Shown: in pieces, positions 94 through 3,171 of the stretch
How positions within the stretch are numbered: the stretch's first letter is position 1
Layout: each line of letters opens with the position of its first letter
Position numbers and translations under genes: made by a program
NCBI GenBank assembly: GCA_946479015.1
Contig: CAMLEQ010000171.1
Coordinates: forward strand, 1-7,675
From: an uncultured Gemmatimonadota bacterium
GTDB lineage: Bacteria; Gemmatimonadota; Gemmatimonadetes; Gemmatimonadales; Gemmatimonadaceae
Direction: 5' to 3'
DNA length: 7,675 nucleotides
The notes under the pieces: model-generated
The model's input: the letters and a program-made list of their open reading frames with translations, nothing else
Told to the model about the DNA's origin: nothing
Databases searched by the model: none

Positions 94-2070
94 TCACATG
101 GTCACCGAGCGCGAGGTGGTGTAGGTCTTCCCGTCCGAGCCCACCACGACCAGCTTCACCGTCCGCGTCCCGTGCGACGCGTAGTCGTGCAGTGGATTCA
201 GCGTCCCGGCCTGATAGCCGTCGCCGAAGTACCAGCTGTACGCCACCGCCGACACGGGGACGCTGAACTTGGAGCCGTCGAAGGCGCAGCCGTAGCCCTG
301 GCAGCTGTACGCGAAGGTGGAGCTGGTCGTGCTGGAGGTGCTGGTGCTGGAGCTCCCCACCGTGATCGTCTTCGACGTGGTGCTCACCTTCCCGCTCCCG
401 TCCACGGTCACGAGCTTCACCGTGTACGTGCCGGCGGAGGGGTAGTCGTGCCCCGGCGACACCGTGCCCGCCTGGTAGCCGTCACCGAAGTACCAGCTGA
501 ACACCTTGGCGCCCGCGGTCTGCAGCGCGCTGCCATCGAAGTGGCAGCCGAGGCCGGAGCACGACACCGAGAACCCCGAGGTGGACGACGAGCTGCTGCT
601 GGACGTCGAGCTGCTCCCGGTGGTCACGCTCTTCGTGACGGAGCTGGTGAGCCCCTTCTTGTCCACCACCACGAGCTTCACCGAGTACGTGCCGGCGCTG
701 GGGAAGTCGTGCGCCGGGCGCTCGACCCCGGCCTGGAGCCCGTCGCCGAAGTACCAGCTGTAGGCGAGGATCCCGTTGGGGGCGGTGGAGCCGCTCGCGT
801 CGAAGGAGCAGGACGTGCTTTGACACGAGAACGTGTACGACGCCGTGGGCCCGCCGGAGGTCGTGGAGGGCGAGGTCGTCGGCGTGCTCGAGTTCAGGAA
901 GCCGGAGTACACGAGCAGGTTGGGCGAGCCCGAGGTGTTCGTCAGGCGCCCGGAGGTGGCGTTCGACACGATCGCCTGCTGCACCTGCGACGGCGACGCC
1001 GAGGGGTGCTGCTGCAGGTAGAGCGCGGCCACCCCCGCCACGAACGGCGCGGCCATGGACGTGCCGTTCATGTACGACGTGGAGACGTCGGAGAAGTAGT
1101 CGGCGCCGTTGATGTACACGCCCGGCGCGAACACGTCCACGCAGCTCCCGTAGTTCGACCACGACGGCCGCGCATCGTTGCGGTCGGTCGCTCCCACGGT
1201 GATCACCGAGGAGACCCGCTGCGGCGACATGCCGCACGCATCGGCGCCGCTGTTCCCCGCCGCCACGGTGTACGTGACGCCGGAGTTCACCGACTTCTTC
1301 ACCGTGGAGTCGAGCAGCGGCGAGATCCCCGCGCCGAGGCTCATGTTGGCCACCGCCGGGCTGTGGTGGTGCGCGGTGACCCAGTCGATCCCGGCGATGA
1401 TGCTGGAGAGCGCGGCGCTCCCGTCGCAGCCGAGGACGCGCACGGAGTAGATCGTGGCCCCCTTCGCCACGCCGTACTTGCTCCCCGCCGCCGTGCCGGC
1501 GACGTGCGTGCCGTGGCCGTTGCAGTCGTTGCCGCTGCCGCCGAAGGCATCGTAGCCGAGGTGGGCGCGACCGCCGAACTCGGTGTGCGTGAAGCGCACG
1601 CCGGTGTCCAGGATGTAGATGCTCACGCCGGAGCCCGTGCCGCTGTACGTGTACGTGCCGCTCAGCGGCAGGTCGCGCTCATCGATGCGGTCGATCCCCC
1701 AGTCCGCACCCGACTCGGTGGTGGACTGCGCATGCACGATGAGGTCGGGCTCGATCCGGTCCACTGCGGGGTCCTGCCGAAGCTGCTCGATCTGCGACGC
1801 CGTGAGCCGGGCCGCGAATCCCTTCATCGCGTACCGGTAGGTGTGCTCGATGGCATCGCGGCGGTTCCACATCAGCCGCCCCGCCGCCTCTGCGGGATCG
1901 GCGACGTCGCGCTTGAGGACCACGATGTAGTGGTCGGGGCGCGCTTCCACCTGGCCGTTGGCGCCGGCGGTGGGAGAGTCCTGAGCGGGGAGCTGCGTCT
2001 GGGGGCCCGTGGCATCTCGACAACCGGCGAGTGCGAGCGCACCCAGGGCGAGAGCGAGGAGGCGTTTCAT
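94..2070 (-). CDS. Secreted subtilisin-like (S8) serine protease lipoprotein with three PKD domains
   Basis: This 658-residue protein is predicted to be an exported endopeptidase. Residues 1-17 form a lipoprotein signal peptide with lipobox LAGC and lipidated Cys17. An inhibitor I9 propeptide follows at about 46-115. The S8 catalytic domain spans about 123-393, with Asp155 (DTGV), His186 (NGHGTHVAG), oxyanion Asn273 (AAGN) and nucleophile Ser338 (NGTSMAAP), in the proteinase K-like style. Three PKD domains occupy about 408-485, 498-572 and 585-658, joined by Ser/Thr-rich linkers; each has SWYFGDG and a CxxxxC pair. The complete triad suggests an active, self-maturing enzyme acting at the cell surface or outside, with PKD domains that may bind substrate or polysaccharide. 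The ATG at 2070 was chosen because a signal peptide starts there and GGAG (2078-2081) sits 7 bases upstream. An in-frame upstream start at 2157 falls inside the riboswitch and would bury the signal peptide. The gene appears to be alone in its transcription unit. Confidence 0.95.
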   Translation of the reverse strand: MKRLLALALGALALAGCRDATGPQTQLPAQDSPTAGANGQVEARPDHYIVVLKRDVADPAEAAGRLMWNRRDAIEHTYRYAMKGFAARLTASQIEQLRQDPAVDRIEPDLIVHAQSTTESGADWGIDRIDERDLPLSGTYTYSGTGSGVSIYILDTGVRFTHTEFGGRAHLGYDAFGGSGNDCNGHGTHVAGTAAGSKYGVAKGATIYSVRVLGCDGSAALSSIIAGIDWVTAHHHSPAVANMSLGAGISPLLDSTVKKSVNSGVTYTVAAGNSGADACGMSPQRVSSVITVGATDRNDARPSWSNYGSCVDVFAPGVYINGADYFSDVSTSYMNGTSMAAPFVAGVAALYLQQHPSASPSQVQQAIVSNATSGRLTNTSGSPNLLVYSGFLNSSTPTTSPSTTSGGPTASYTFSCQSTSCSFDASGSTAPNGILAYSWYFGDGLQAGVERPAHDFPSAGTYSVKLVVVDKKGLTSSVTKSVTTGSSSTSSSSSSSTSGFSVSCSGLGCHFDGSALQTAGAKVFSWYFGDGYQAGTVSPGHDYPSAGTYTVKLVTVDGSGKVSTTSKTITVGSSSTSTSSTTSSTFAYSCQGYGCAFDGSKFSVPVSAVAYSWYFGDGYQAGTLNPLHDYASHGTRTVKLVVVGSDGKTYTTSRSVTM

Positions 2071-2098
2071 CGTGGGACTCCGGTGTTGGCTGGTCCGC

Positions 2099-2185
2099 GC
2101 GACGGCTCGACTGGCATGGCGCGTGGTGCGCGCTGTAGCCTCGTAGCTTTGCGTCACCGCCTTTCGACGGCTTTGCCCTCGTCGC
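2099..2185 (-). promoter_or_regulatory. Cyclic di-GMP-I (GEMM-I) riboswitch aptamer
   Basis: The minus strand reads like the GEMM-I aptamer. P1 is GCGACG (2180-2185) pairing perfectly with CGTCGC (2099-2104). The conserved GGGCAAAG lies at 2171-2178. P2 is GCCGTC-GAAA-GGCGGT (2156-2171) with a GNRA loop. The conserved GACGCAAAGC lies at 2146-2155, followed by the P3 arm. In P3, GGC/GCC and GCGCG/CGCGC helices flank a CTACA/CAT internal loop resembling the 11-nt tetraloop receptor. Spacing from the tetraloop matches the Vibrio Vc2 aptamer base for base on both sides, placing a G at position 20 and an A at position 47, the ligand-contacting residues. G20 indicates c-di-GMP rather than the A20 seen in cGAMP-sensing relatives. 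The aptamer ends 28 bases before the protease ATG, so control of ribosome access is plausible; the on/off direction cannot be read from sequence. Confidence 0.9.
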
Positions 2186-2202
2186 TAGCCTCTCGGCGTA
2201 GC
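2184..2202 (-). other. GAGA-capped hairpin abutting riboswitch P1
   Basis: On the minus strand, GCTA-C-GCC-GAGA-GGC-TAGC folds into a 7-bp stem with one bulged C and a GNRA loop. Its last two bases, GC, are also the first two of the P1 5' strand, so full formation of both helices is mutually exclusive at their junction. It may be a leader-stabilising hairpin or part of the switching mechanism. The pairing is visible; the role is inference. Confidence 0.45.
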
Positions 2203-2398
2203 AACCGTGCGATTGGGTTGTGTGAGGGTGAGTTCCGGTGCGGCGAGAACTGGTGGGTTGATGGTACGCACGATTTCCTGGGAGGCTGACCAGTACGGCA
2301 CTTCCCGCCGATACACGGTGCATCCCTGCTGCGACAACGCGCCTAGAATACGATCGACAGATAGGGCACGATACAGGGAAAACGGGAAGTTTCACCGT

Positions 2399-2948: not shown

Positions 2949-3163
2949 GGGCGTGGGACCTGGTCGCTAGAACACCGAACAACGCGTGTCGCGTGTAGGG
3001 AACTGACGGGATGAGGAGATGGGTAGAGCGCGTGTAGGGTCGTGTGTAGGTGGACTCTCTCCACACAACCGAGCCTACACGCGCTCTACCTCGCCCCTCT
3101 TTCCGTCAGTTCCCCACACGCCACACGCGTTTCATGGTGTTCTACCCACCAGGTCCTACGCTC
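2949..3163. repeat. Long imperfect inverted repeat between convergent genes
   Basis: The left arm, 2957-3038, matches the reverse complement of the right arm, 3074-3155, at 68 of 82 positions with no gap. Weaker matching continues outward to about 2949 and 3163. The 35-base centre contains its own hairpin, GTGGA-CTCTC-TCCAC, and TCG/CGA pairing next to it, so the whole stretch can fold into one hairpin of roughly 210 nt. It fills nearly all the space between the SWIM stop (2947) and the endonuclease III stop (3172). The left arm also repeats GCGTGTAGGG directly at 2991-3000 and 3030-3039. It may act as a bidirectional terminator or RNA stabiliser. The size and symmetry also fit a non-coding mobile or REP/MITE-like element; no transposase or clear target duplication is visible. 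Confidence 0.88.
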
Positions 3164-3171
3164 GTCTCTCC

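Follow-up and report, generated by a model that had tools for sequence, protein, structure and literature searches.

Background

Among the described c-di-GMP-I (GEMM-I) aptamers, Vc2 of Vibrio cholerae (Rfam RF01051) is referred to as translational in the literature excerpts at hand, which also tie ligand selectivity to position 20; a Vc2 G20A mutant can bind cGAMP and a G20A/C92U mutant binds c-di-AMP. Within the pocket, C92 is highly conserved and required for ligand recognition according to PMC3764141, and PMC9049102 places its conservation below that of A47; the C92U mutant of Vc2 has been crystallised (3MUR; excerpt of PMC10671752). With respect to proteases, PMC6366702 describes zmpI/PPEP-1 of C. 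difficile, a zinc metalloprotease under class I switches whose output is OFF and which work through transcription termination. The original prediction for the DNA studied here held that adhesin-cleaving proteases are under c-di-GMP control via protein receptors; that account is incomplete, given the class I riboswitch on the zmpI/PPEP-1 mRNA (PMC6366702, excerpt). Because of this precedent the general idea of c-di-GMP control of a surface protease by RNA is already known, and the novelty once attached to direct RNA control is weakened accordingly. Our literature search, for which excerpts of PMC6366702, PMC7288161, PMC9049102, PMC7266159, PMC9481103, PMC4744006, PMC3764141, PMC9262584, PMC11218506 and PMC10671752 served as comparison, found no account of c-di-GMP riboswitches in Gemmatimonadetes, nor of a subtilase lipoprotein, a Gemmatimonadaceae regulon, a U92 subclass or a start-codon hairpin of the kind described below.

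We report on a 7675-base stretch of DNA (the window) in which a c-di-GMP-I aptamer precedes the gene for an S8 lipoprotease, and on the comparative analysis of this arrangement in 179 genomes of the family. Our data suggest that one ligand-contacting base of the aptamer may also take part in a hairpin over the start codon.

Results

The aptamer and the protease gene

The features of the locus are as follows.

94..2070, minus strand: gene for a lipoprotein S8 protease of 658 aa (Pfam)
2068..2104, minus strand: predicted hairpin over the Shine-Dalgarno sequence and start codon, the 5' arm of which is also the P1 3' strand (folding)
2078..2081, minus strand: Shine-Dalgarno GGAG (sequence; invariant across the 12-leader alignment)
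2098..2187, minus strand: c-di-GMP-I (GEMM-I) aptamer (RF01051, 67.8 bits, gathering threshold 35, E 4.8e-12)
2102, minus strand: equivalent of Vc2 C92, here U (cmscan alignment, numbering mapped by hand)
2150, minus strand: equivalent of Vc2 A47, A retained (cmscan alignment, numbering mapped by hand)
2177, minus strand: equivalent of Vc2 G20, G retained (cmscan alignment, numbering mapped by hand)
2195..2212, minus strand: conserved element (TCGCACGGTTGCTACGCC) just 5' of the aptamer, resembling a promoter or an operator (clade comparison)

Using cmscan and 4227 Rfam families, RF01051 was the sole match at gathering threshold in the window, and it spans the full model (1-87 of 87), which bears out the GEMM-I aptamer proposed for the protease leader. 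Both the tetraloop stem and the GACGCAAAG core are present in the cmscan alignment, and G20 and A47 are kept; since the ligand-contacting C92 is replaced by U, the earlier statement that every recognisable element is there was slightly too strong. The aptamer does lie just 5' of the gene as proposed, the gaps being 27 rather than 28 bases to the ATG (2070) and 16 rather than about 17 to the GGAG (2081-2078). By its whole-model score it is classed with RF01051, as a pocket variant.

The protease has an Inhibitor_I9 domain (aa 48-114; PF05922, E 2.3e-13), a Peptidase_S8 domain (aa 146-374; PF00082, E 1.1e-43), three PKD stretches and a lipobox-like LALAGC read from the sequence, in line with the PKD-subtilisin lipoprotein originally proposed downstream of the aptamer. 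By the criteria of domain, propeptide and lipobox it is classified as a peptidase S8 lipoprotein, with predicted lipidation. ILDTG, GHGTHVAG and NGTSMAAP, which we take to be the subtilase motifs that contain Asp, His and Ser, are readable in the protein, and aqualysin-1 is the best sequence match to the catalytic part among solved structures. An S8 family serine peptidase from Gemmatimonadaceae (P0001) also has 658 aa and is identical at 100% after rounding, with a few residues differing. The remaining genes of the window, as assigned with Pfam, encode SRP54, ribosomal protein S16, RimM, a tRNA m1G methyltransferase, an aldehyde dehydrogenase, an endonuclease III-like protein and a SWIM protein. 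By eye, a long imperfect inverted repeat lies at approximately 2955-3165 between the SWIM and endonuclease III-like genes, and a C-rich low-complexity run (1-82), perhaps a contig-end artefact, directly follows the protease stop codon.

Conservation of the aptamer with the protease

A first survey covered 69 protease loci in genome contigs, with the aptamer scan applied to one of these, the Gemmatimonadaceae MAG CRAIB_MAG34 locus (L001). This is the sole close relative of the survey (55% identity; the others 23-53%, best segment), and it has an aptamer of 64.4 bits and a linker nearly identical to that of the window. The protease search of the 179 genomes of the family, taken to be Gemmatimonadaceae from L001, gave 74 places in 56 genomes (E <= 1e-100; the best 6 candidates per genome at most), and the upstream DNA of all 74 was scanned at the gathering threshold, with 184 bases available at L260, 64 bases at L272 and some further contigs also ending early. 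An aptamer was detected upstream of 15 of the 74 places (14 RF01051 and one RF03167); 59 had none in this gathering-threshold scan, some of their upstream stretches being short, and the aptamer link is therefore a property of clades and not of the enzyme type.

The protease tree comprised 35 rows, i.e. the window, 30 places with loci, L163, L165, L196 and L086, the last taken from the aptamer list and lying outside the 74; L282 and 40 more of the 74 were excluded. The window and 10 riboswitch-led proteases form one clade (support 100/100), with no row lacking an aptamer within it in this tree. In the 10 relatives the aptamer is positioned 27-28 bases before the protease start, and protein identity is 42-58%. 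A second clade of five riboswitch-led proteases (support 97/83) has ordinary aptamers. As the aptamer is kept before the window protease and in the 10 other clade members, the link between RNA and protease is conserved; the presence of the aptamer upstream of homologous proteases in related genomes, which the original prediction had put forward as a check, is seen in all 10 relatives of this clade. The one RF03167 match, a c-di-GMP-I-GGC variant aptamer (L282:311-410), lies 19 nt before a relative of the window protease.

A family-wide set of aptamers and an upstream element

RF01051 is present in 123 of the 179 family genomes (stricter filters, at most the best 23 candidates per genome being scored). 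We examined 153 aptamers, of which 150 were among the matches listed, the others being L073, L282 and the window. Mechanical assignment gave an ORF for 152, with 124 at a distance of no more than 35 nt, three at 36-100 nt and 25 beyond 100 nt, some of these 25 probably representing mischosen starts. The 125 proteins with linkers of up to 45 nt include 105 with a loose and 65 with a strict lipobox, compared to 21 and 10, respectively, of 253 other unfiltered ORFs of at least 200 aa at the same loci. Big_2 was found in 62, Big_1 in 29, Peptidase_S8 in 16 and GGDEF in five of 122 aptamer-led proteins, scanned over their first 330 aa at most and with L282, L145 and L221 dropped. By these linker, lipobox and domain counts, the window protease is one of a family-wide group of mostly lipoprotein-like surface genes, and start-proximal c-di-GMP-I aptamers mark what is, as judged from predicted proteins, a surface-protein regulon consisting chiefly of Ig-like-domain or lipobox proteins.

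GGDEF and EAL proteins are encoded in all 10 genomes of the window-clade relatives, which makes c-di-GMP plausible as the ligand. In five leaders (L083, L088, L089, L090 and L154) 11 nt separate the aptamer from a gene that probably encodes a response-regulator GGDEF protein. The products of these genes have a common N terminus and are probably the source of the five Response_reg and five GGDEF matches; by eye, GAGGAG might serve as the P1 3' strand in these leaders, and an OFF switch in diguanylate cyclase feedback is possible.

Further upstream, TCGCACGGTT(G/A)CT precedes all 11 clade proteases. Its core, GCANGRTYGC, was found no more than 60 nt upstream of 42 of the 153 aptamers and in 15 of 5545 control tiles; these 42 copies, mostly CGGCA[CG]GATCGC, start 22-37 nt before the aptamer, and TTAC forms are unmatched by the pattern. 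With a looser matrix, 64 of the 153 aptamers have a hit above threshold (119 of 4826 controls), distributed as 53 of 110 for linkers of 14-45 nt and 0 of 15 for linkers of at most 13 nt; L109-L111, L114 and L115 are under the threshold. The element resembles a promoter or operator sequence used across the regulon.

Position 92 of the pocket

Across the 153 aptamers, Vc2 position 92 is C in 140 and U in 13, the latter being the window, 10 clade members, L171 and L221. By eye, the lipoprotein-like frame that follows L171 reads as Ig-like. L221 (G097:C735) is a U92 leader that has a start codon and lies approximately 200 nt before an rplS-like frame, and no protease match was obtained downstream of it; perhaps it is an orphan riboswitch whose gene was lost, or the product of an assembly join. 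A platform-pattern search of 395 genomes of the phylum gave no new members: 11 genomes matched (one match with the reversed control pattern), corresponding to eight known leaders and three places with neither GACGCAAA nor GGCAAA in the 110 upstream bases.

The P1 3' strand and the predicted start-codon hairpin

The linker was analysed in 12 leaders, i.e. those of the 11 clade proteases and L221, by folding that provides secondary-structure estimates with tertiary and ligand energies excluded. Across the set there is no variation in the strand GUCGCGCGGAC or the segment GGAGUCCCACGAU, which join in a hairpin in the MFE structure of all 12, masking the Shine-Dalgarno and start region. Folded alone, the window hairpin has an MFE of -12.5 kcal/mol (z -2.09), matched in stability by 5 of 200 shuffled sequences, and the whole window leader has z -1.56 (12 of 200 as low). 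Ten of the 12 hairpins, all but those of L106 and L111, were folded in isolation; z varies from -1.20 (L104) to -4.83 (L114), and at most 10 of 200 shuffles were as stable in eight of them, the others being L104 (23/200) and L124 (14/200). Changing U92 to C in silico weakened the hairpin by 2.6-3.7 kcal/mol in all 12 leaders. With almost no variation between leaders, the outer stem gives no covariation support; the inner stem shifts register among the leaders. In L115 (1369-1519) the P1 5' strand, by eye, mismatches its 3' partner, although the linker and the greater part of the core are preserved, and in L105 and L106 A14 would sit opposite C93.

The locked aptamer was simulated by folding only the sequence 3' of C95, with a reference fragment starting at position 90. 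In the window, the hairpin remaining with ligand-bound P1 has -5.8 as against -12.5 kcal/mol, and locking raises the unpaired probability of the AUG from 0.01 to 0.41; locked values are 0.35-0.99 in the other 10 proteases and 0.05 in L221. The Shine-Dalgarno sequence stays mostly paired in the locked state of all 12 leaders (unpaired probability 0.25-0.46). In full-length free folds five of the 12 leaders show strong masking of the AUG (0.01) and seven show partial masking (0.32-0.67). The order is reversed in L114, with 0.67 in the full-length free fold and 0.52 in the locked fragment; two additional bases place the AUG just beyond the stem in L114 and L115.

As background, the P1 extension was compared family-wide (n=124), own strands giving a mean of -7.59 and swapped strands one of -6.56 (sd 0.21, 200 swaps), a difference inflated by related rows. 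An extension of P1 into GGACC that frees the Shine-Dalgarno sequence suits, by eye, some leaders only, and is not claimed here.

Discussion

A proposed competition for one strand

The folding data suggest the following route. Without ligand, G91-U92-C93-G94 of the P1 3' strand would pair with the start region, and the neighbouring GGAC would pair beside the Shine-Dalgarno sequence, closing a single hairpin. With ligand, U92 would face the ligand and C93-G94 would pair in P1, which would exclude the outer half of the hairpin; the start codon would then open and the residual hairpin would be weakened. We favour such a ligand-opened translational switch because U92, C93 and G94 cannot serve the pocket and P1 and the start hairpin together. 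That translation of the surface S8-PKD lipoprotease is ligand-controlled through this competition we regard as fairly probable, a judgement that overlaps with the rival views of ligand and direction discussed below. Ligand identity, translational control, direction and the targets of the protease are all points that we infer. Transcription termination was also considered and set aside because the linkers are short: with 124 of the 152 aptamers no more than 35 nt from the start, they were judged too short for most terminators.

Granted that the RNA switches, we lean slightly towards the ON direction. This is the weakest step, since the Shine-Dalgarno sequence stays paired in the calculation and the published protease example is OFF. 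The alternative pairing masks the start in 12 of 12 MFE structures, and what locking leaves in place, an inner hairpin that holds the Shine-Dalgarno sequence in both computed states, would suit an OFF switch in which ligand-stabilised P1 stacks on this closed hairpin and the protease is made at low c-di-GMP (dispersal or motile state). Such a switch would agree with Vc2, termed a translational OFF switch in the excerpts seen, with C. difficile zmpI, which c-di-GMP regulates negatively and whose mRNA has a class I riboswitch (PMC6366702, excerpt), and with several of the 15 leaders with linkers of at most 13 nt, where by eye the Shine-Dalgarno sequence lies at the P1-extension site. In the window clade, however, the P1 3' strand is common to P1 and the start-masking hairpin, so that ligand should loosen the latter, and we consider the OFF direction rather unlikely.

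The U at position 92 invites two further explanations. The change may tune affinity, and may weaken c-di-GMP binding, or it may alter specificity in favour of a different cyclic dinucleotide such as 3',3'-cGAMP, whose adenine would lie opposite U92. This base is characteristic of the protease clade, and the ligands bound by the G20A/C92U and G20A mutants of Vc2, as given in the excerpts, are in keeping with a changed preference; G20, the position to which the same excerpts tie selectivity, is nevertheless retained, the C92U Vc2 mutant was crystallised (3MUR; PMC10671752, excerpt), and a change of ligand is not needed to account for U92 because this base also serves the start-codon hairpin. We hold a different ligand to be improbable. 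Decay of the aptamer to a silent form that no longer responds would fit the C92U change, the ill-fitting P1 5' strand of L115 and the orphan leader L221, but two linker blocks and the majority of the core columns do not vary in the 12 leaders while the proteins diverge down to 42% identity, which makes decay very improbable. Returning to the ligand-opened switch, we propose tentatively, as a possibility on the doubtful side, that the G20/A47/U92 aptamers are a natural pocket subclass in which, in the free RNA, the start-codon A takes as its partner the base that would otherwise pair with the ligand, such that ligand and start would compete for one nucleotide.

If true, a second messenger would directly control surface proteolysis through RNA in this group, protease control would stand beside the many Ig-like lipoproteins that are led by riboswitches, and the locus would be a natural case of a riboswitch pocket base doubling as a start-codon clamp.

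Comparison with known systems

The window aptamer resembles Vc2 in that the whole RF01051 model is matched and G20 and A47 are kept, and differs from it in having U92, a P1 3' strand overlapping the predicted start hairpin, and an S8 lipoprotease downstream. Pocket variants of the same fold are also found, according to the excerpts seen, in c-AMP-GMP (GEMM-Ib) riboswitches. The c-di-GMP-I-GGC family (RF03167), with its L282 copy, is likewise a variant aptamer family; the window, in contrast, belongs to RF01051 and keeps A47. The natural mark of c-AMP-GMP aptamers is A20, and unlike these the window is changed at position 92 and not at position 20. Finally, as in C. difficile zmpI/PPEP-1 (PMC6366702, excerpt), a c-di-GMP-type riboswitch is located on the mRNA of a secreted or surface-acting protease, and, unlike that system, the protease of the window is a subtilase and its linker is 27 nt.
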